From contig DUKP01000119.1 of NCBI GenBank assembly GCA_013329295.1, positions 1-16,430 on the forward strand: DNA of 16,430 nt, in the 5' to 3' direction. The stretch is from Candidatus Poseidoniaceae archaeon. GTDB lineage: Archaea > Thermoplasmatota > Poseidoniia > Poseidoniales > Poseidoniaceae. Shown here piece after piece: positions 1,498 to 14,905 of the stretch (the first letter of the stretch is position 1; the number at the start of each line of letters is the position of its first letter). The notes beneath the pieces were generated by a model. The model was not told the origin of the DNA, did not search any database, and worked only from the letters and a program-made list of their open reading frames with translations. A program made the position numbers and the translations under genes.

Positions 1498-2259
1498 ATG
1501 TCTCGAATAATTATGGCAGTTGACCGCATGCAGTGGGGTGCGGAAGAATGGCAATTTGCAGACTTATACATGCCTGACGATGATTCACCATTTGCTTCTG
1601 AACATGGAATACCTTGCATAATGCTAATCCATGGAGGTTTTTGGAAAACTAAATACGGTTTAGAATTGATGAAACCTATTGCTGAAGATTTAGCTGAAGC
1701 AGGTATTGCTGCTTGGAATATTGAATTCAAAAGATGGAGTGACAATGAAGAAGGTGTATGGATGGATACTCTATCGGATGTCTTACGTGCTTGGGGACAG
1801 TTAGCGCTACTTCCTCGAATCGATATTATGAGATCGATGGTGATGGGTCATTCTGCTGGAGGCCAATTGGCACTACTATTGGCTGCAAAAGCAGAGAGAA
1901 AACCATGGTTAGCAATTGCTCAAGCTCCAATTACAGACTTAATTGGTGCAGATCATGCTAAACTATCAGACGAAGGGGATGCTGTTAGAAAATGGATAGG
2001 TTGTACTCCAGAGGAAGACACAAAACTTTGGTCAAACCTTAACCCAGTCGATAACATTCCTATTTCACCGGTTCTAATAATACATGGAGAAGAAGATGAC
2101 GAAGTCCCTCTCTCCCAATCTGAAACCTATGCTAGAGTAATGAGTGCTAAAGGTGCTGATATCCAAAAAGTCTGGCTTCCCGGAGACCATTTCTCAATTA
2201 TTGATGCCGCTAGCGATGATTGGTTGGTTCAACTCAATGCTATACTTGATTGGTTCTGA
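1498..2259 (+). CDS. Alpha/beta hydrolase, kynurenine formamidase-like
   Basis: This 253-residue alpha/beta-hydrolase has the oxyanion-hole motif HGGFW (residues 45-49), the nucleophile elbow GHSAGG (Ser119), an acid in HGEEDDEVP (Asp200 or Asp201) and His231 in GDHFSI. HGGxW followed by a segment ending in a basic/aromatic stretch (NIEFKRW) is typical of the BD-FAE / kynurenine-formamidase branch, which hydrolyses small esters or N-formyl amides. It is cytoplasmic, with no signal peptide. The start at 1498 is the first ATG after the promoter; ATGs at 1513 and 1528 are alternatives. The gene is followed after 38 nt by the SDR. A formamidase would suit a cluster dealing with tryptophan-derived or N-acyl aromatic amines, but the substrate cannot be deduced and a general carboxylesterase role remains possible. 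Confidence 0.85.
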   Translation: MSRIIMAVDRMQWGAEEWQFADLYMPDDDSPFASEHGIPCIMLIHGGFWKTKYGLELMKPIAEDLAEAGIAAWNIEFKRWSDNEEGVWMDTLSDVLRAWGQLALLPRIDIMRSMVMGHSAGGQLALLLAAKAERKPWLAIAQAPITDLIGADHAKLSDEGDAVRKWIGCTPEEDTKLWSNLNPVDNIPISPVLIIHGEEDDEVPLSQSETYARVMSAKGADIQKVWLPGDHFSIIDAASDDWLVQLNAILDWF

Positions 2260-2297: not shown

Positions 2298-3113
2298 ATG
2301 GACTTGCTCAATCATAGTTTCCCATTTTCAAAAACTGCCCTTAATGGCAAGCATGCACTTATCTTCGGTGCAAGTAAAGGAATCGGGGCAGCGACTGCAA
2401 AAATGATGGCTATGGCTGGAGCAGATGTCACTTTGTGTGCTAGAAATTCTGAATCTCTAAAACGGGTAAAAGATGAGATTGAAACATTTGCAACAGGTAG
2501 AATTTCTTTTAGGAATGTAGACTTAGAAGAGTTGTCAGTAATTGATGAAATCATTGATGAAATTACAACTAATTTAGGCCCTGTGCACATTCTAGTGAAC
2601 AATTCGGGTGGCCCACCTGGTGGCCCTTTACTAAAAAATTCAGTAGAAGATTTCGACGCACCATTTACTCGTCACTTACATGCTGCACATAAAATAACAC
2701 AAAGATTAGTCCCCTTAATGGAATCTGAAGGCTTTGGTAGAATTATCCAAATTATTTCGACCTCTGTGAAGGAGCCAATCCCTAACCTTGGGTTATCAAA
2801 TACCCTTAGAGGCGCTATGGCAAGTTGGTCCAAGTCATTATCAAGAGAATTACATCCTTGTATCACCATCAATAACGTCCTACCTGGTTTCACCGATACT
2901 GAAAGATTAGGCAGTTTAGCTGAATCAATTAATCAAAAAACTGGTAAATCAATCGATGAAATTCATGATGGATGGATGGGGCAAGTACCAATTGAGCGCC
3001 TGGTTGACCCACTTGAAACCGCTTCAGCAATTACTTTCCTTGCATTACCTTCCTCAGGAGCAATTAGAGGAGTATCATTAGCAGTAGATGGTGGCAGACT
3101 ACGTAGTATCTAA
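2298..3113 (+). CDS. SDR-family protein with an atypical catalytic tetrad
   Basis: The 271-residue protein has a Rossmann fold of the short-chain dehydrogenase/reductase type: GASKGIG (24-30) for cofactor binding, CARN after the second strand, NNSGG (101-105) in place of NNAG, a serine region STS (154-156) and the C-terminal PG...T.R and DGG segments. The classic YxxxK is not present: the aligned stretch reads SNTLR, with Ser167 and Arg171 where Tyr and Lys should be. This matches a known 3-oxoacyl-reductase-like subgroup that lacks a perfect tetrad. It may be a reductase with altered chemistry or a non-redox binder. The gene lies 38 nt after the hydrolase, and its stop abuts the stop of the convergent phosphoesterase gene with no spare base. 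Confidence 0.88.
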   Translation: MDLLNHSFPFSKTALNGKHALIFGASKGIGAATAKMMAMAGADVTLCARNSESLKRVKDEIETFATGRISFRNVDLEELSVIDEIIDEITTNLGPVHILVNNSGGPPGGPLLKNSVEDFDAPFTRHLHAAHKITQRLVPLMESEGFGRIIQIISTSVKEPIPNLGLSNTLRGAMASWSKSLSRELHPCITINNVLPGFTDTERLGSLAESINQKTGKSIDEIHDGWMGQVPIERLVDPLETASAITFLALPSSGAIRGVSLAVDGGRLRSI

Positions 3114-5050: not shown

Positions 5051-6298
5051 ATGAAGCATGACATTTTCTTCTCGATTAGTCAAACACCTGATGTTAATGG
5101 TGTTACTCCGACTGAGAGAAAAATGTTCGAAAACTATTTCCAACAACTCAAGCATGCAGACAAATTAGGATTTGGTGTTGGGTGGATTGCTCAAGCACAC
5201 TTGTCTACTGAAACTCAAAAATCAAATTCAATGCCAGTAGTACCGCATTGGCAAGGGGAAGTTGGCCTCTGTACTGATTTTCCTCAATTGGCTATGGAGA
5301 GTTTTCGTCAGACTCAAAACATTGATATCGGCTCAGCAGTCATTAGTATATTGGCTAGTGGCGGACCTATTGCACAAGCTGAAAGAATCGCAAATACTGT
5401 CCAATTTCTTTCGATGTTAAATGACAACCGAAAGTTGCATGTTGGTTTTAGTGCCGGAAGATTTGAATTCATGGCAAGGCCTTATGGAATTTCACCAAGA
5501 AACTCTTGGGAAAGTGCAGCATGGAAAGCACTTAGAGGGCAAATCTTCCTTGAGGCAAGTGAAATCTTTCTTAGATTATTAAAAGGTGAAATAATCTCAA
5601 GTAGTCAAATTAGAAAGACCATTTTAACTAGAGAAAATTTTCGAAGTGATGAGGATTGGCAGGCAGTTCAAGAAGCATACCTTGCGGAAAATGATGAACA
5701 AAATATAACATCAATTACAATTCCTAACAGATATAATTTCGAAGATATTTCCATCATACCTAAACAGTGGAATCGTTCACAACTACAACTTGTCGCTGGA
5801 ACACATGACTCCAAAGCACAAGAATTCGTTAATACAATTTTGCCAGTTAGAGTTTTTAATCTCTCAATAACATCTCCTAAGATCATTGATGAAACCCACG
5901 AAAGAATGATGAAAAATTATCATTCCGATGGAGGAGAATGGGAGCGCAGTTATATGCCAAGAACTAGTTTTGTATTCATCAATGATGAAGAAGGTTTGAC
6001 AAATGAACAACAAAGTCAAGCCGCTAATGTTGAAGCAAAGGAAGCATTACAAGCATATTGGAATGCATTAGAAGGAACTATCGATCCCGAAAAAGTTTCC
6101 AAAGCGGCTAATAATGCGCTGATTGGCAATCCTGCTGAAGTAGCAAAACAAATTGTCGAAAGATTCCATCCCGATGACACGATAATGGCATGGTTTGATT
6201 TCTTCAATCATGACTCTGAACGAGTTTGCCGCAATATGACTGCATACATGACAAAAGTTGTTCCAATGGTAGAAAAGATGCTGGAGGAGTTGATATGA
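5051..6298 (+). CDS. Luciferase-like (LLM class) flavin-dependent monooxygenase
   Basis: A 415-residue TIM-barrel flavin enzyme of the bacterial luciferase family. It opens with MKHDIFFSIS, the usual first strand, and has the core segment AQAERIANTVQFLSML followed by HVGFSAGRF (the family's AE...LD.LS.GR..G...G region), plus a C-terminal IGNPAEVAKQI motif seen in this family. The frame is open back to a GTG at 4985, overlapping the TPR gene. I prefer the ATG at 5051 because family members start at this first strand; an ATG at 5021 is also possible. Such enzymes use reduced FMN (or F420) and oxygen to hydroxylate, or to cleave C-S, C-N or amide bonds. Its stop overlaps the start of the next gene (ATGA), so the two are translationally coupled. 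The substrate is unknown; oxidation of an aromatic amine or its precursor is a reasonable guess from context. Confidence 0.85.
   Translation: MKHDIFFSISQTPDVNGVTPTERKMFENYFQQLKHADKLGFGVGWIAQAHLSTETQKSNSMPVVPHWQGEVGLCTDFPQLAMESFRQTQNIDIGSAVISILASGGPIAQAERIANTVQFLSMLNDNRKLHVGFSAGRFEFMARPYGISPRNSWESAAWKALRGQIFLEASEIFLRLLKGEIISSSQIRKTILTRENFRSDEDWQAVQEAYLAENDEQNITSITIPNRYNFEDISIIPKQWNRSQLQLVAGTHDSKAQEFVNTILPVRVFNLSITSPKIIDETHERMMKNYHSDGGEWERSYMPRTSFVFINDEEGLTNEQQSQAANVEAKEALQAYWNALEGTIDPEKVSKAANNALIGNPAEVAKQIVERFHPDDTIMAWFDFFNHDSERVCRNMTAYMTKVVPMVEKMLEELI
6283..6287 (+). promoter_or_regulatory. Shine-Dalgarno deciding the amidohydrolase start
   Basis: GGAGG ends 7 nt before the ATG at 6295, inside the end of the flavin enzyme gene. 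It supports 6295 over the upstream TTG at 6226 that the open frame would permit. The same 7-nt spacing recurs before the dioxygenase fusion gene and the transporter gene. Confidence 0.7.
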
Positions 6299-7407
6299 GT
6301 TCAGAAAAAATACCCTCTGCAGTGCGTGAAGGCAAACCGGGAAGTTCAATGTATCCTGAATCATCGCTTGGAGAAGCGGTTGAAGGTATTCCTACTGGAC
6401 GAGATGTCGATTGGGAGCCATTAGTTGATTATCGTCGAAATGGAGTTTCAGAAACTACAATTCATGGTGCAGTTGCCTGGGCGCATGGCGAAGAAGTAAT
6501 ACACTCATTTGGCGGCAATGTTCTTTGTTATGGAAGGTCCATGATGAAGCCATTTATGCTCAAAGCTTTCACTGAAGAGTTACAAGATGCGACTTGGGAG
6601 CAAAAAGCAATTGCAGTTGCATCACACAATGGTGATACTGAACACGTTGCTACTGCTCAATCTTTACTTTCAGAAGAAGAATGGCCTTTGATGTTGACTC
6701 CTCTTGATGTACCTTTAATTCAATTTGGCAGGCAAGTTCGCCGGCCAAGAAGATGGTATCACACATGCTCTGGAGAACACTCTGCCATCCTACATGGCTG
6801 TAGAAAAAAGGGCTGGAATCGCGCAGGTTATACATTGCCTAACCACCAAGTCTTCAAAGCTTATATGGAACAAATACGCACATATCTTGGAGATGACTGG
6901 AAGCCACTTCGAGTAGCAAAAGATGGTTGTGGCTTGCCTACTGTATCCAATACCGTCTCTGAACTTGCTCAAATCTATGCTGGTCTTGTTAGAGACAAAG
7001 ATGATGATTGGATTTGGGAAGCGATGGTTAAACATCCAGATTTGGTAGGTGGGTTCAACCGTCTAGACTCAACTATATTGAAAGCAGGTGAAGGTAAGGT
7101 TATCGCTAAAGAAGGGGCTGATGGATTGCTTGGATTAGCTATTGAACACCCTGATTATCCAAAAGGATTGGGTGTTGTAATCAAGATTGCACATGGCTGG
7201 AATTCTCAAGCAACATGGTATATTGCAAGAGCTGTACTGGGCGTCCTTGGCATTGATTTGAGGAATCCATATCCTTTACACAGACAAAAGGCATTTATCG
7301 TGCCTGGTATTGTTCCACCAAAATATGTCAAATCACTAGGGGACATAGATACATGGGATGAATGGGATCCTGACCGTGATAGATGGACTTATGATATCGA
7401 GGTGTGA
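6295..7407 (+). CDS. Class 3 L-asparaginase-like (PF06089-type) amidohydrolase
   Basis: The 370-residue protein follows the asparaginase II / AnsA family (the Rhizobium etli ReAV type) from end to end. Motifs: RSMMKPF (Ser82, Lys85), ASHNGDTEH (Ser110), HTCSGEHSA (Cys158), KDGCGLPT (Cys212), HPDLVGGFNRLD and AKEGADG (Lys272). In the characterised family two Ser-Lys pairs act in catalysis, and two Cys plus a Lys bind zinc. Here both Ser-Lys pairs and both Cys are kept, but the CSGKH lysine is glutamate (Glu161). The enzyme should cleave an amide and release ammonia or an amine, but the altered zinc site and the neighbourhood suggest the substrate may not be asparagine. It overlaps the upstream flavin gene by 4 nt and the downstream dehydrogenase gene by 4 nt (GTGA), so all three are probably made together in the cytoplasm. 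Confidence 0.87.
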   Translation: MSSEKIPSAVREGKPGSSMYPESSLGEAVEGIPTGRDVDWEPLVDYRRNGVSETTIHGAVAWAHGEEVIHSFGGNVLCYGRSMMKPFMLKAFTEELQDATWEQKAIAVASHNGDTEHVATAQSLLSEEEWPLMLTPLDVPLIQFGRQVRRPRRWYHTCSGEHSAILHGCRKKGWNRAGYTLPNHQVFKAYMEQIRTYLGDDWKPLRVAKDGCGLPTVSNTVSELAQIYAGLVRDKDDDWIWEAMVKHPDLVGGFNRLDSTILKAGEGKVIAKEGADGLLGLAIEHPDYPKGLGVVIKIAHGWNSQATWYIARAVLGVLGIDLRNPYPLHRQKAFIVPGIVPPKYVKSLGDIDTWDEWDPDRDRWTYDIEV

Positions 7408-8849
7408 GTTTGCAAATTGAAAATTTCATTGGTGGAGAATTCATAGCACCATTGAAAAAAAACTATCTCGAAAATCTTAATCCAGCTACTGGAAAAATCA
7501 CATCAAAAATACCAAGTTCTACCAAAGAAGATGTAGAAATGGCAGTCAAGGCTGCTCAAAACGCCTTACCTAATTGGTCACAACTTTCGATTGACGAGCG
7601 AATCATTTGGCTAAGAAAAATTGCTAACGCCCTGGAATCACGCAAAGAAGATGTTGCCGCTTTAGAAAGCATGGACACAGGCAAACCAATTAGTCTCGCC
7701 AAGCGAGTAGATGCTGCACGTAGTGTAAGTAACTTCGAATTTTTTGCTGAACATGCTGAGAATCTAATTGAACTGAATTACAAAATGTCTGACGCAACTA
7801 ATTATGTGACCAGAAAACCTGTTGGCGTTGTAGGTCTAATTACTCCTTGGAACCTTCCGCTATACTTGCTGACATGGAAAATTGCTCCTGCATTGGTAAT
7901 GGGTAATACAATAGTGGCAAAACCAAGTGAAATGACTCCACTAACCGCTAACTTACTGTGCGAGATTCTAACATCAATAGAATTCCCAGAAGGAGTGATA
8001 AATATTGTTCATGGTCTTGGACCAAGTGCTGGTCAATCTATTTTAGAACATCCAAACATCAAGGCAATCTCATTTACTGGCGGTACTGCAACTGGAAAGA
8101 TTGTTGCACAAACAGCTGCACCTATGTTCAAAAAATTATCACTTGAACTCGGTGGTAAAAATGCTACCATTATTCTTGATGATGCTGACTTGCCAAATGC
8201 AGCAAAAGGTGCTGCTAGAGCAGCATTTACGAATTCTGGCCAAGTATGTTTATGTGGTTCAAGAATTCTTGTTGCTGACAACATCTATGATGAATTTGTT
8301 ACTTTATTGATTAATGAAGTTGAATCCATGACAATTGGTAATCCAAGTGATGAAAACACTGACATCGGTTCTGTAATTTCATCTGAACACATGGAAAAGG
8401 TCCTCTCATACATTGAACTTGCCAAACAAGAAGGTGGGAAAATTTCTGTGGGAGGCTCCAAGTTAACACTACCTCCTCCTAATGCTGATGGCGCATTCAT
8501 CGAACCTACTCTTATCGAAGGTTTAGCAATTGATTCCCGATGTGCAACTGAAGAAATTTTTGGACCTGTAGCATCAATTCATCGATTCATTACTGACGAT
8601 GAAGCAATTGAAATGGCTAACATCACTGAATATGGTTTAGCAGGCTCGGTCTGGACTTCAAATCCTACTCGTGGCAAATCTGTCGCTGAGCGAATAGATA
8701 GTGGTATTTTGTGGGTAAATACATGGCTTCACCGTGACCTTAGAACTCCATTTGGTGGTGTCAAAAGTTCAGGAGTAGGTAGAGAAGGTGGCGACTGGTC
8801 ACTGAATTTCTTCTCTGAACTCAGCAATATATGTGTAAAAGAAGAATGA
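7404..8849 (+). CDS. amnC: 2-aminomuconate 6-semialdehyde dehydrogenase-like ALDH
   Basis: This 481-residue NAD-dependent aldehyde dehydrogenase is full length. Asn150 lies in PWNLPLYLLTW, Glu248 in LELGGKN, the nucleophile Cys282 in GQVCLCGSR, and the end reads LRTPFGGVKSSGVGREGG. PWNLPLYLLTWKIAPAL and WLHRDLRTPFGG are characteristic of the ALDH8A1 / 2-aminomuconate and 2-hydroxymuconate semialdehyde dehydrogenase branch. Arg101 lies 49 residues before Asn150, the spacing of the substrate-binding Arg120/Asn169 pair known in Pseudomonas 2-aminomuconate semialdehyde dehydrogenase. It would oxidise the ring-cleavage product to 2-aminomuconate. The GTG start overlaps the amidohydrolase stop; a TTG at 7410 with GAGGTG upstream is an alternative. 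A 2-hydroxymuconate semialdehyde substrate cannot be excluded, but the AmnA/B/D-like genes downstream favour the amino form. Confidence 0.85.
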   Translation: MSLQIENFIGGEFIAPLKKNYLENLNPATGKITSKIPSSTKEDVEMAVKAAQNALPNWSQLSIDERIIWLRKIANALESRKEDVAALESMDTGKPISLAKRVDAARSVSNFEFFAEHAENLIELNYKMSDATNYVTRKPVGVVGLITPWNLPLYLLTWKIAPALVMGNTIVAKPSEMTPLTANLLCEILTSIEFPEGVINIVHGLGPSAGQSILEHPNIKAISFTGGTATGKIVAQTAAPMFKKLSLELGGKNATIILDDADLPNAAKGAARAAFTNSGQVCLCGSRILVADNIYDEFVTLLINEVESMTIGNPSDENTDIGSVISSEHMEKVLSYIELAKQEGGKISVGGSKLTLPPPNADGAFIEPTLIEGLAIDSRCATEEIFGPVASIHRFITDDEAIEMANITEYGLAGSVWTSNPTRGKSVAERIDSGILWVNTWLHRDLRTPFGGVKSSGVGREGGDWSLNFFSELSNICVKEE

Positions 8850-9663: not shown

Positions 9664-10485
9664 ATGTCCGTTCACGGTCAAGCCAAGAAGGTCACAACTC
9701 ATACGCTTCAAGAAATGAAGCGTGCTGGTGAGAAAATCACTATGCTTACCGCATATGATTACTCACTAGCAAAATTGGTTGACAATGGCGGAGTGGATGT
9801 AATTCTTGTAGGAGATTCGGCATCAAATGTAATGGCTGGGCAAGTTACTACAGTGCCGATGACTTTGGATCACATGATATACCACGCTCAATGTGTAAAG
9901 CGAGCTGTTGACAGAGCACTTATTGTAGTGGATATGCCGTTTGGAACCTATCAAGGTAATTCTGCAATTGCTCTTGAATCTGCTATTCGAATTATGAAAG
10001 AAGCAGAAGGTCATGCTGTCAAGTTAGAAGGTGGGGCTGAAATTGTTGAGTCAATTAAGAGAATTCTAACTGCTGGTATTCCAGTAATGGGACATCTTGG
10101 ACTTACTCCTCAATCAATTTACAAATTTGGCACATACAGTGTTAGAGCAAAGGAAGATGATGAAGCGGCTAAGTTAATTGAAGATGCTAAAATCCTTGAA
10201 GAAGCTGGTTGTTTTGCAATTGTATTAGAAAAGATTCCCCGTGAACTAGCAAAGAAAGTAAGTGAGGCGATTAACATACCAACCATTGGAATCGGCGCTG
10301 GCCCTGATTGTGATGGACAAGTATTGGTATTGCATGATTTGCTTGGCATAACTATGGACTTTTCACCAAGATTCCTTAGGAGATATCTAAATCTTGCAGA
10401 ATCAATTGATGGTGCAGTAAAGCAATACTGCGAAGATGTTAGAACTGGCGATTTCCCTAATGATTCTGAGAGTTATACATCATAG
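9664..10485 (+). CDS. panB: 3-methyl-2-oxobutanoate hydroxymethyltransferase
   Basis: The 273-residue protein is a complete PanB. The metal-binding aspartates are Asp51 in VGDSASNV and Asp90 in VVDMPFGTY; Lys120 (KLEGG), His144 ([10 protein letters not shown]) and the catalytic Glu189 (VLEKIP) are present, as is [12 protein letters not shown]. The length matches the usual 260-280. It transfers a one-carbon unit from methylene-folate (or an archaeal carrier) to 2-oxoisovalerate to make ketopantoate, the first committed step of pantothenate/CoA synthesis. No other CoA genes are in the window, and pathway partners are often scattered in archaea. Its last 6 nt overlap the 3' end of the convergent membrane-protein gene. 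The start is the ATG at 9664, following the 52-nt gap. Confidence 0.96.
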
Positions 10486-11067: not shown

Positions 11068-11964
11068 ATGGCGCAGGGCGAGATTGTTGCGGGCTGTTTA
11101 GCACCGCACCCACCCCACTTGGTTTATGCTGAGAATCCAGAGCAGAATGAACCGGTTGCAGAAGGTGGCTGGGAACAGCTTAGATGGGGTTATGAACGAC
11201 TTAGAGACTCGCTAAAGGGGATAGAATATGATGCGATAGTAATTCTATCGCCACACTGGCAAACCTATGTAGGAACTCATTTCCTTGGACTAGAAAATTT
11301 CCAAAGTCTTTCTGTAGATCCTATTTTTCCCAACCTATTTCGCTATCACTACGACATGAATGTTGATGTTGAACTTGCTCAACAGATTCATGACAAAGCC
11401 GACAAAGCAGGTTTGACAGTCAAGATGATGACTAATCCTGATTTTAGAGTAGATTATGGAACTATTACCACAGGCCACATGTTTAGACCACAATGGGATA
11501 AGCCATTAGTGGTAATTTCCAGTAACCGCTCAAGTGCATACTATTCAGTTGAAGTTATGCAAGAAATGATGATAGAACTTGGTAAAGCAACACGTGAAGC
11601 GATTTTGGAAAGTGGAAAGAAAGTTGTTGTATTAGCAAGTAACTCATTATCTCATCGTCATTTCACCACTGAGTCAGATATTCCAGAAGATATGAGCAAA
11701 GAGCACATTACTAGTCATGCTATGCATTTGTGGGATATGCGAATTATTGACTACATGAAATCAGGTCAATGCCAGAGAATTATTGATGAAATGCCTGAAT
11801 TTACCGAACAAGCGATTGCTGAAACAGATGGTGGAGCATTTACTTGGTTGCTATCTACTCTGGAAGTCCCAAACTATCCAGCAATTCTCCACGGATACGG
11901 CACAATTATTGGCACTGGTAATGCAATCGTTGAGTGGCCAGTCTACAAACATAAGGAGGCATGA
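11068..11964 (+). CDS. amnB: 2-aminophenol 1,6-dioxygenase catalytic (beta) subunit, LigB superfamily
   Basis: Counting from the ATG at 11068, the protein has 298 residues, close to the ~305 of AmnB. It carries the type III extradiol dioxygenase iron ligands at the expected spacing: His14 (LAPHPPH), His63 (SPHWQTYVG) and Glu252 (AIAETDGGAF), with the active-site His196 (SNSLSHRHF) and Tyr130 (FRVDYGT). Other AmnB-like segments are SVDPIFPNLFRY, GGAFTW and GYGTIIGTGNA. It would open the ring of 2-aminophenol or a substituted o-aminophenol with Fe(II) and oxygen, giving 2-aminomuconate 6-semialdehyde. The N-terminus is chosen by family alignment (MAQGEIVAG) and by the TATA box. The next gene encodes the non-catalytic partner and follows 2 nt after the stop. 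A catechol-type substrate is a less likely alternative. Confidence 0.9.
   Translation: MAQGEIVAGCLAPHPPHLVYAENPEQNEPVAEGGWEQLRWGYERLRDSLKGIEYDAIVILSPHWQTYVGTHFLGLENFQSLSVDPIFPNLFRYHYDMNVDVELAQQIHDKADKAGLTVKMMTNPDFRVDYGTITTGHMFRPQWDKPLVVISSNRSSAYYSVEVMQEMMIELGKATREAILESGKKVVVLASNSLSHRHFTTESDIPEDMSKEHITSHAMHLWDMRIIDYMKSGQCQRIIDEMPEFTEQAIAETDGGAFTWLLSTLEVPNYPAILHGYGTIIGTGNAIVEWPVYKHKEA
11953..11959 (+). promoter_or_regulatory. Shine-Dalgarno deciding the fusion-gene start
   Basis: AAGGAGG ends 7 nt before the ATG at 11967 but only 1 nt before the ATG at 11961. The normal spacing points to 11967 as the start; 11961 would make a 4-nt overlap with the upstream gene but is too close to the ribosome-binding site. 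Confidence 0.7.
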
Positions 11965-11966
11965 AA

Positions 11967-13358
11967 ATGACTAATGGTGAGATTGTTGAATCATTTGTTG
12001 TACCTGTTCATCCACACACTGTGCTGGCACCTGAACAAAATGAGGGTTGGGGCAGATTAAGAAAAGCATATGATGATGCTGCAAAAATTATCCAAGATAG
12101 TGGTGCAGATTTATTGATTATTTATTCAACCACTTGGCCAAGTATCATTGGCCATCAAATTATTTCAGACCCTAATCCTGAATGGGTGATGGTAGATCAT
12201 GACTTCCATGAGTTAGGTTCAATTCATTACTCATTCAAGATTGATGTTGAATTTGCCGAGCAATGGAATGCAGAAAACAAATCACGTGGATTACAAAGTC
12301 GATGTGTGAACTATCATGGTTTTCCGATTGATGTAGGTTCAGTAGTTGCACTTACTCTACTAAATCCAGAAAATAAAATACCAGCAATTATCGTTTCGTC
12401 TAATGTTTATGCCGACAGGAGTGAAACTACAGTCCTAGCTAAAGCATGCCGAGATTTGGTAAAAAGAACTGGACGTAAAGCTGTAGCAATCACTGCAATG
12501 TCCCTTTCAAATAGAATGTTCACTGAACATATCGACCCTAAAGATGACCGTATCCATTCTTTGAAAGATGATGAATGGAATCAAAAGATATTGGAATTTT
12601 TATCTGAAGGTAGGCTTGAGGATGTTGGCCAACTCTCAAGAACTATTCAGCGACAGATACGTGTTCAAAAAGTGGTTAATTTCAAGCCAATGTGGTGGTT
12701 ATCTGCAATGAATGATAATCGAAATAATTTGACTGGTAATGTTCTAGCATATGAGGGAATTCACGGCGCAGGTTGTGCTGTGGTAAATCTCAATCCTACG
12801 CCCTCTGGATTTGGTGACAAAGAATATGATGAAGATGATGTTGAAATTTTTGCTGGTGAAAGGGGCGTATTGGACTCTAACACACAACAAGAAAGTAAGA
12901 TAGAAACAGACGATGGACCTGCTTTATGGGAGCCAACTAAGGCTGAAGGTTCAGTTAATACAGATGCTGCTCCAAAACCCGTTGGTGCATATCCGCATGC
13001 AAGAAGAGTTGGTGACTTGATTTACTTGTCAGGAGTGGGTCCAAGGCAGCCTGGAACTAATGAGATTCCTGGTGGGCCAATTCATGACAATAGCGGTAAA
13101 CCTCTCAACTATGACATAAAAGAACAGACTCATGCTGTTGTCAATAACATCGCTAGAATTCTCGAAGAAGCTGGTTCATCACTTGACAAAGTTCTCGATG
13201 TGACTTCTTTTTTAGTAGATATGGATCGTGACTTTCAAGGTTACAATGAAGTTTGGGCAGAAACCCTTGGTAAAGTTGGACCTACTAGAACTACCTTAGC
13301 AATAAGGGCTTTACCAACACCAATTGCCGTAGAGATGAAGGTTATCGCCAGTATTTGA
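11967..13358 (+). CDS. amnA-amnD: Fusion: 2-aminophenol 1,6-dioxygenase alpha subunit + 2-aminomuconate deaminase (RidA family)
   Basis: The 463-residue protein has two parts. Residues 1 to about 280 are a LigB-fold domain like AmnA: GFPIDVG (119-124) and W-rich MWWLSA (242-247). Aligned with the catalytic subunit, the active-site residues are lost: His14 to Val14, His63 to Thr56, His196 to Asn182, Glu252 to Val236. As in known alpha subunits, it is therefore structural. After an acidic linker (about 284-333) comes a complete RidA/YjgF domain (334-463) with PKPVGAYPHARR, YLSGVGPR, GPTRTT (Arg441) and VEMKVIA (Glu456), the pattern of 2-aminomuconate deaminase, which hydrolyses the enamine/imine to release ammonia. 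Characterised systems encode these as separate proteins. The gene is probably co-translated with its partner subunit upstream. Confidence 0.9.
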   Translation: MTNGEIVESFVVPVHPHTVLAPEQNEGWGRLRKAYDDAAKIIQDSGADLLIIYSTTWPSIIGHQIISDPNPEWVMVDHDFHELGSIHYSFKIDVEFAEQWNAENKSRGLQSRCVNYHGFPIDVGSVVALTLLNPENKIPAIIVSSNVYADRSETTVLAKACRDLVKRTGRKAVAITAMSLSNRMFTEHIDPKDDRIHSLKDDEWNQKILEFLSEGRLEDVGQLSRTIQRQIRVQKVVNFKPMWWLSAMNDNRNNLTGNVLAYEGIHGAGCAVVNLNPTPSGFGDKEYDEDDVEIFAGERGVLDSNTQQESKIETDDGPALWEPTKAEGSVNTDAAPKPVGAYPHARRVGDLIYLSGVGPRQPGTNEIPGGPIHDNSGKPLNYDIKEQTHAVVNNIARILEEAGSSLDKVLDVTSFLVDMDRDFQGYNEVWAETLGKVGPTRTTLAIRALPTPIAVEMKVIASI

Positions 13359-13486: not shown

Positions 13487-14905
13487 ATGGACATAAAATC
13501 AACCGCAGACAAATTGCTGAAGGGTGATGTTTCGGGCGTTGTTGATGATGTTAAATCAACCATCAAAAGATCATTGACATTAGTTGGAGTAATTATTGTC
13601 ACTGTAGCCGCAAGTATTGGCTCAGGGTTATTTGTCCTTCCTTCTTTTGCTGCCTCAGTAATGGGTCCAGGAATATGGTTGGCATTTTTACTGGCCGGAA
13701 TCGTGTTTTTACCTGGTGCTTTGTCAAAATCAGAACTGGCTTCTGCAATGCCAGTAAATGGTGGTGCATATGTTTACCTCGAACGGTCATTCGGACCAAT
13801 TATTGGAACCATTAGTGGTTTAGGATTATGGGCTTCATTTCTACTGAAATCTGCCTTTGCATTGATTGGTTTTTCCGCTTACATGTATGCGGTAACGAAT
13901 TATCTTGACATATCTACTAACGCTACGTTTGTTATCATGTCTGCACTAGCATTGATTACTATACTCAATATCTTTGGTATTAAGAAAGTCAAAGCATTTC
14001 AAACACCAATCTTGGCATTAACTACAATATTGATTTTAGTCATATGTTTCATCCAATTATTCGATGCAAGTTTTGATTTTTCCCGCCCCATTGATGGAGC
14101 ATTTGACGTTTCAAGAGATGACCCAGTATTGGTCGCAGAGGCTGCTGCGTTAGTCTTTGTCGCTTATGCAGGAATATACAAAGCAGGGGCTTTGGGTGGA
14201 GAAATTAAGGAACCAAAAAAGAATCTACCTGCTGGTATGCTATTATCTCTACTACTGATTACTTTGCTATATGTGGTTGTTACATTCATTATGATGGGGG
14301 CTGTAGAAGGCGAATGGTGGGTTAATTCAGATGGTAGCCCAAGAGAAGATCCGATCTTTGCCTTCGTAGATGCTGTGGCATCGACTGAAATTGGCATTGC
14401 TATGGCGCTATTAGCTTTTCTTACAATGATTTCAGGTGCTCTATCAGGATTATTGGCTGCATCAAGATTCTTGTTTGCAATGGCCAAGGATTGTCTTTTA
14501 CCAGATAATTTAAGTGAAACAAATGAGAAATTTGGTACTCCTCATTGGTCAATTATTATTACAGGTGTTGCAATGGGAATTTGCATCCTAACATTACCGG
14601 TCAAGGATGTTGCTAAATTAGCCTCAGGATTCCAAATTATGGTCATTGTAGCCTTGAATGCTTGTGTTATTATTCTAAGAAGAGAAAATCAAAAACACGA
14701 ATGGTACCAACCAGAATTTAAATCTCCATTGTACCCATTTGTCCAGGTCTTTGGTATAATTGCGGGCGCAATTCTAGTCTACTTGATGGGTTCTAAAGCC
14801 ATAATTGGAGCATTAGCCGCCATAGTTCTTGGACTTTCTACCTACAAAATTTATGGTGAAAAGAACTACAAGAATTTGGAAAATACAAGTTTGGAATCTG
14901 AATGA
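13487..14905 (+). CDS. APC-superfamily amino acid/amine transporter
   Basis: A 472-residue integral membrane protein with about 12 hydrophobic segments and a ~28-residue cytoplasmic N-terminus. TM1 contains GSGLFVLP (45-52), the glycine-rich unwound substrate-binding stretch of the amino acid-polyamine-organocation superfamily. GPGIWLAF, then NGGAYVYLERSFGP and an FALIGFSAY segment follow the usual APC order. A cytoplasmic loop holds GGEIKEPKKNLP, also typical. It probably imports an amino acid or amine using an ion gradient. It lies downstream of the dioxygenase/deaminase genes on the same strand, with its own leader, Shine-Dalgarno and palindromes, so it may be separately controlled. Uptake of an aromatic amino acid or amine feeding the pathway is a contextual inference; specificity cannot be read. 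Its stop is 12 bp from the convergent surface-protein gene. Confidence 0.88.
   Translation: MDIKSTADKLLKGDVSGVVDDVKSTIKRSLTLVGVIIVTVAASIGSGLFVLPSFAASVMGPGIWLAFLLAGIVFLPGALSKSELASAMPVNGGAYVYLERSFGPIIGTISGLGLWASFLLKSAFALIGFSAYMYAVTNYLDISTNATFVIMSALALITILNIFGIKKVKAFQTPILALTTILILVICFIQLFDASFDFSRPIDGAFDVSRDDPVLVAEAAALVFVAYAGIYKAGALGGEIKEPKKNLPAGMLLSLLLITLLYVVVTFIMMGAVEGEWWVNSDGSPREDPIFAFVDAVASTEIGIAMALLAFLTMISGALSGLLAASRFLFAMAKDCLLPDNLSETNEKFGTPHWSIIITGVAMGICILTLPVKDVAKLASGFQIMVIVALNACVIILRRENQKHEWYQPEFKSPLYPFVQVFGIIAGAILVYLMGSKAIIGALAAIVLGLSTYKIYGEKNYKNLENTSLESE

Follow-up and report, generated by a model that had tools for sequence, protein, structure and literature searches.

An AmnA-RidA gene fusion of Marine Group II archaea and a possible kynureninase-bypassing tryptophan route through 2-aminophenol

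The fused gene and its neighbours

The window, i.e. the whole stretch of 16,430 nucleotides analysed here, corresponds to contig C76 in a draft genome of 77% completeness; among named database entries, those nearest to it belong to the Poseidoniales (Marine Group II). It carries a set of genes on the forward strand (Table 1), one of which codes for an AmnA-like alpha subunit of 2-aminophenol 1,6-dioxygenase joined in a single frame to a RidA domain. ATG 11967 is the likelier start of this gene, the motif AAGGAGG being located seven bases upstream (11953-11959). Pfam recognizes LigB at residues 19-273 and Ribonuc_L-PSP at residues 335-464, each above its cut-off. In sequence searches of the PDB, the top match of the N-terminal part is the alpha subunit of 2-amino-5-chlorophenol 1,6-dioxygenase (3vsg_A, 5.7e-42), and the C-terminal part matches the 2-aminomuconate deaminase AmnE (6izh, 3.3e-26) better than the RidA protein 2dyy (9.6e-20). 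The AlphaFold2 model of the fusion consists of two domains (mean pLDDT 82.3, residues 299-323 below 50). Foldseek searches with this model returned 3vsg_A as top match and 6izh as top match of the RidA part; the LigB domain is thus homologous to AmnA/CnbCa in sequence and in fold. Pfam, PDB, Foldseek and phylogeny agree with the sequence-only reading that an AmnA-type subunit is joined in one frame to a RidA domain of the 2-aminomuconate deaminase type. That reading had also described the N-terminal part as a ring-cleaving dioxygenase subunit, which is correct but incomplete: the chain is the alpha subunit, and the presumed iron ligands lie in the separate AmnB.

Table 1. Features of the window discussed in the text
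Feature	Position	Strand	Basis or remark
Alpha/beta hydrolase, candidate archaeal kynurenine formamidase (weak)	1498..2259	+	PF20434 (BD-FAE); adjoins SDR in relatives
SDR-fold protein of the cluster	2298..3113	+	Pfam; clustering
Luciferase-like flavin monooxygenase (LLM), 415 aa	5051..6298	+	fold match; listed ORF from GTG 4985
Asparaginase-II-like hydrolase (PF06089)	6295..7407	+	ATG 6295 overlaps LLM stop; listed ORF from TTG 6226
ALDH, candidate 2-aminomuconate semialdehyde dehydrogenase	7404..8849	+	top NCBIfam model TIGR03216 (564.2 bits; cut-off of 693.25 not reached)
AmnB, catalytic beta subunit of 2-aminophenol 1,6-dioxygenase (predicted)	11068..11964	+	PDB 8ihg_A 5.3e-114; 56.0% identical to CnbCb
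AmnA-RidA fusion gene	11967..13358	+	same frame open from ATG 11961, 465 aa
AmnA-like LigB domain (alpha subunit), to ~residue 276	11967..12788	+	Pfam; PDB sequence and fold match 3vsg_A
Conserved acidic C-terminal tail of AmnA clade, residues 290-304	12828..12872	+	also ends unfused AmnA
Variable linker	12873..12962	+	low confidence in AlphaFold2 model
RidA domain, 2-aminomuconate-deaminase clade	12963..13352	+	Pfam, PDB match, tree
APC-family amino acid permease, candidate importer	13487..14905	+	PF13520; adjoins fusion in many family-1 loci

In an alignment of 104 AmnB rows, H14 is present in 102, H63 in 103 and E252 in all 104, the remainder being gaps. We take these residues to be the His, His and Glu iron ligands of 2-aminophenol 1,6-dioxygenase. 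Judged from its sequence, AmnB is predicted to be the catalytic partner of the fused alpha subunit and to cleave 2-aminophenol.

The region between the two domains had been called an acidic linker. A linker does exist and measures 26-51 residues (median 39) beyond the acidic tail in the 27/27 aligned fusions, with boundaries set by the chosen motifs. The acidic stretch itself (residues ~290-304, DEDDVEIFAGERGVL) is, however, mostly the conserved tail of AmnA, which also terminates the unfused AmnA of loci L067, L070-L072, L075, L076, L163 and L194. Kept with or without fusion, this tail may be involved in partner binding.

In the RidA tree, the domain of the fusion belongs to a clade of 42 rows (support 99/96) that also includes AmnE and six RidA rows of plasmids, deriving from amn and 3-hydroxyanthranilate clusters. 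The RidA paralogue encoded by the window's own genome (L196) falls apart from this clade. A generic RidA identity, which the sequence-only reading had named as its possible undoing, is rejected on these grounds. Two plasmid rows lie outside the clade on long branches, namely one of the two from Polaromonas (L210) and that of Comamonas CNB-1 (L212), which adjoins cnbCb. In three plasmids the RidA gene directly adjoins that of a 3-hydroxyanthranilate 3,4-dioxygenase (L208 6010-7010, L210 4010-5044, L211 2995-3978), and these RidA proteins cluster with AmnE. The cleft of AmnE includes Ser35, Gly36, Glu88, residue 103, Arg117 and Lys135 (PMC6742747). In 27 fusions, the Gly, Arg and Lys positions are invariant, Ser is kept in at least 90% and Glu88 is replaced by Asp; for residue 103, the paper and the sequence do not clearly agree. 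Arg56 was reported to be required for the hexamer of the AP-3 AmnE (PMC6742747); the position is variable among the fusions, with Lys in the window. Arg56 can be regarded as a feature of the AP-3 enzyme that is dispensable for clade membership.

The asparaginase-like hydrolase shares PF06089 with the Rhizobium etli asparaginase ReAV and keeps its four catalytic positions (Ser48, Lys51 and Ser80 in 56/59 rows, Lys263 in 59/59, the rest being gaps), although overall similarity is low (E 1.2e-15) (PMC8602277). The zinc-ligand set of ReAV is only partly conserved, both Cys (135 and 189) being present in 57/59 rows and Lys138 being replaced by Glu in 56/59. The Pfam match of the LLM is weak (19.7 bits for a cut-off of 27.9). 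Its fold is that of bacterial luciferase, as in type II Baeyer-Villiger monooxygenases. Alignment with fold relatives revealed no sharper affinity to any one activity, and the 120 database relatives listed are named only LLM, luciferase, SsuD-like or hypothetical. The SDR-fold protein keeps Ser154, but Ser and Arg replace the usual Tyr and Lys in 37/37 rows. The closest PDB chain of the alpha/beta hydrolase is a carboxylesterase and its other PDB matches are esterases as well; the bacterial formamidase KynB belongs to a different fold family. A ketopantoate hydroxymethyltransferase gene (PanB, 9664-10485) lies upstream of AmnB in most family-1 loci, with one small gene of the opposite strand in between, and is likely unrelated to the cluster.

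Distribution and origin of the fusion

A database search with the fusion found 3,324 clusters, and both Pfam domains are present in all 120 that were listed; some fusion-bearing clusters come from contigs of 0.4-1.4 Mb. Fused frames occur in Marine Group II archaea, Myxococcota, Planctomycetota and Bdellovibrionota. The 79 loci taken from named genomes comprise 67 fused and seven split ones, two without RidA in the stretch and three that could not be judged; the fused share is biased upward since the loci were collected with the fused protein as query. Within the order, the query matches 186 of 193 genomes. Among the matches listed, the match spans the whole protein in most family-1 genomes and its AmnA part only in many family-2 genomes, within a frame of ~310 residues; the family-2 genomes G129 and G007 carry the fused form (L165, L170). 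At the split archaeal loci L070, L071, L072, L076, L163 and L194, the RidA gene is located 3' of AmnA with a TGATG or TAATG junction. AmnA-RidA is a widespread architecture and not a single oddity.

The alternative that the fusion results from an assembly error or a chance joining, or that its RidA domain is a generic one, could appeal to the split forms of family 2, some of which have TGATG or TAATG just after AmnA. It is nevertheless contradicted by the two-domain structure of every listed cluster, by the fused form at most of the loci and by the position of the RidA domain next to AmnE, so that its probability is negligible. A frameshift or assembly error had been considered in the sequence-only reading as well; the fused frame recurs in many assemblies, and an artefactual joining is rejected.

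The RidA and AmnA trees disagree on when the fusion arose. In the RidA tree, the unfused L067 and L075 are outside a group (98/91) that holds all fused rows and later splits. In the AmnA tree, the fused L062 and L068 branch first, with weak support.

Gene neighbourhoods and genome-wide searches

Family-1 archaeal loci mirror the window, with hydrolase, SDR, LLM, asparaginase-like, ALDH, AmnB, AmnA-RidA and permease genes and unrelated genes interspersed. The SDR, LLM, asparaginase-like and ALDH genes are found together in eight family-2 stretches (L160-L165, L170, L171), three of which also include AmnB-AmnA-RidA. At the archaeal loci L028, L029, L031 and L045, the genes for ALDH, the asparaginase-like enzyme and the LLM have the opposite orientation to AmnB. 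An asparaginase-ALDH fusion suspected in G001 (883-aa frame) was rejected, the ORFs being separate.

Bacterial loci additionally carry a KynB-type kynurenine formamidase gene 3' of AmnA-RidA and a gene for tryptophan 2,3-dioxygenase (TDO). Gene pairs were counted in the 18 genomes behind these loci when midpoints were at most 8 kb apart and identity reached 32% (38% for SDR, no limit for AmnA), the counts being limited by contig ends. LLM is paired with SDR in 15/18 genomes. The pairs LLM-asparaginase-like, LLM-ALDH, KynB-RidA and asparaginase-like-AmnB each occur in 14/18, KynB-AmnA and ALDH-AmnB each in 13/18, LLM-AmnB in 10/18, LLM-TDO and LLM-KynB each in 8/18 and TDO-AmnB in 6/18. In a Planctomycete (L074), TDO and the remaining set, eight genes in all with families confirmed by Pfam, form one run. 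In G207, the genes TDO-SDR-LLM-ALDH-RidA-KynB are packed with RidA unfused, and AmnB-AmnA-asparaginase-like is located elsewhere in the genome.

The pathway enzymes were also searched genome-wide in these 18 bacteria and in 27 of the 193 archaeal genomes, hand-picked across genera among those matching the fusion; all 45 carry relatives of the fusion family. TDO is above cut-off in 26/27 archaea and 17/18 bacteria (the misses being G009 and G204), and in 2/14 control genomes. LLM is present in 24/27 archaea and 18/18 bacteria, and the asparaginase-like gene in 25/27 archaea. Kynureninase is above cut-off in only 1/27 archaea (G013) and 0/18 bacteria; weaker matches (E up to 0.001) occur in three further archaea and four bacteria, with G202 almost at the cut-off. 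3-HAO is above cut-off in 2/45 genomes, strongly in G013 and marginally in G007; no control genome gave a hit by which to gauge the sensitivity of this search. The 4-hydroxy-2-oxovalerate aldolase (DmpG_comm) was detected in 0/27 archaea, 3/18 bacteria and no control genome. In the archaeal draft G013, the strong kynureninase and 3-HAO genes, which may be genuine or contaminants, are on separate contigs, L121 (G013:C29) and L178 (G013:C44).

A possible route from tryptophan and the role of the tether

The gene set can be arranged into a tentative pathway. TDO would convert tryptophan to N-formylkynurenine, and a formamidase would release kynurenine. The LLM would then act as a type II Baeyer-Villiger enzyme, inserting one oxygen between the carbonyl of kynurenine and its ring to give the beta-(2-aminophenyl) ester of L-aspartate, which could shift to N4-(2-hydroxyphenyl)-asparagine. 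Cleavage of the ester or amide by the asparaginase-like hydrolase would yield L-aspartate and 2-aminophenol. AmnB and the AmnA part of the fusion would open the ring of 2-aminophenol, ALDH would oxidize the semialdehyde and the RidA domain would deaminate 2-aminomuconate to 4-oxalocrotonate. The genes, their homology and clustering, the kept active-site positions and the rarity of kynureninase are observations; every enzyme activity in the carrier organisms, above all those of the LLM and of the hydrolase, is a prediction. In our estimation, the fusion is probably an alpha subunit of 2-aminophenol 1,6-dioxygenase with a tethered C-terminal 2-aminomuconate deaminase, belonging to a tryptophan gene set that bypasses kynureninase. 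On balance, we also lean towards an undescribed tryptophan route that Marine Group II archaea have in common with several bacterial phyla and in which Baeyer-Villiger oxidation of kynurenine by the LLM and release of aspartate and 2-aminophenol by an asparaginase relative make kynureninase dispensable, with the fusion as the ring-opening and deaminating unit.

Other routes can be drawn with the same genes. An LLM that hydroxylates the ring of kynurenine, followed by opening of 3-hydroxykynurenine or a related aminophenol by AmnB/AmnA and a later action of the asparaginase-like enzyme on an amide or ester, draws on the same gene set; LLM enzymes are known for varied oxidations and the LLM alignment does not separate activities. 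AmnB nevertheless closely resembles enzymes that act on 2-aminophenol, unsubstituted or chlorinated, and such a route offers no obvious substrate for a beta-aspartyl-type hydrolase, making it unlikely. We consider quite unlikely an ordinary meta-cleavage of external 2-aminophenol in which the LLM, the asparaginase-like enzyme and the SDR serve other ends. AmnB, AmnA, ALDH and RidA do fit that known pathway, but TDO and KynB are found in the same bacterial clusters, which weakens external 2-aminophenol as sole source. Moreover, LLM and asparaginase-like genes recur in these TDO/KynB clusters, and the annotation of the CNB-1 cnb region, in the stretch shown, lists neither TDO nor a formamidase, LLM or asparaginase-II gene. 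Very unlikely, finally, is a standard kynurenine pathway via 3-hydroxyanthranilate, the latter being taken by AmnB/AmnA, with a KMO and a kynureninase that are divergent or unassembled. The genomes are drafts, the searches for the later enzymes of this pathway covered kynureninase and 3-HAO, and kynureninase matches exist in G013 and G202; against this stand the single kynureninase and two 3-HAO genomes out of 45, compared with 43 for TDO.

The preferred Baeyer-Villiger route resembles several known systems in part. The amn/cnb pathway of Comamonas testosteroni CNB-1 and Pseudomonas AP-3 shares AmnB, the alpha subunit, ALDH and a RidA-type deaminase. The latter is a separate gene there, and the earlier statement that known pathways encode the two proteins separately holds in the plasmid amn clusters examined. 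The AmnA tail is an addition of the present family, and DmpG of the classic lower meta-cleavage pathway is mostly absent from it. The 3-hydroxyanthranilate kynurenine pathway of bacteria, animals and fungi likewise begins with TDO and formamidase and ends with a semialdehyde dehydrogenase and 2-aminomuconate; kynureninase and 3-HAO are rare here, and an LLM and an asparaginase-like enzyme are found instead. An Aspergillus 3-hydroxyanthranilate cluster includes ALDH and RidA-family genes next to BVMO, SDR and amino-acid transporter genes, but it opens and decarboxylates with 3HAO and ACMSD, its BVMO is FAD-binding, its context is salicylate and its available text reports no fusion (PMC7842363). 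In the ARO microcompartment pathway of Actinobacteria, the 2-aminophenol dioxygenase is also kept near its ALDH, by a protein shell and not by gene fusion, the word 'fused' being absent from the available text; its authors suggest that the true substrate is not 2-aminophenol itself but a precursor upstream of it (PMC10470539). Neither the fusion nor the route was found described among the matches listed from the open-access literature, subscription journals and preprints being outside this search, and the main text of a census of archaeal fusions contains none of the words 'dioxygenase', 'deaminase' and 'RidA' (PMC11237513). There is a fair chance that the pathway itself is new.

The tether would hold the ring-opening and deaminating steps together. 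2-Aminophenol dioxygenase is heterotetrameric, and tied to a trimeric Rid domain it would form a larger particle. The sequence-only reading saw a benefit in avoiding the loss of 2-aminomuconate semialdehyde to picolinate. The semialdehyde does cyclize to picolinate, but it is consumed by ALDH (PMC10470539), so a tethered deaminase alone cannot prevent this loss. The tether may rather hold the deaminase close to the enzyme that opens the ring, at a constant proportion of the two; the authors of the AmnE study could not obtain 2-aminomuconate owing to its instability (PMC6742747).

The fusion offers a simple system to test whether a tether is of use when the products of ring cleavage are unstable. 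The proposed route, if true, would assign a function to a large LLM group so far without specific names, and would provide a kynureninase-free branch of the kynurenine pathway as well as a natural source of 2-aminophenol, a compound mostly studied as a pollutant. Marine Group II have been described as outnumbering all other planktonic archaea in the surface ocean and are without cultures (PMC6461757); a complete tryptophan route would say something concrete on their diet.
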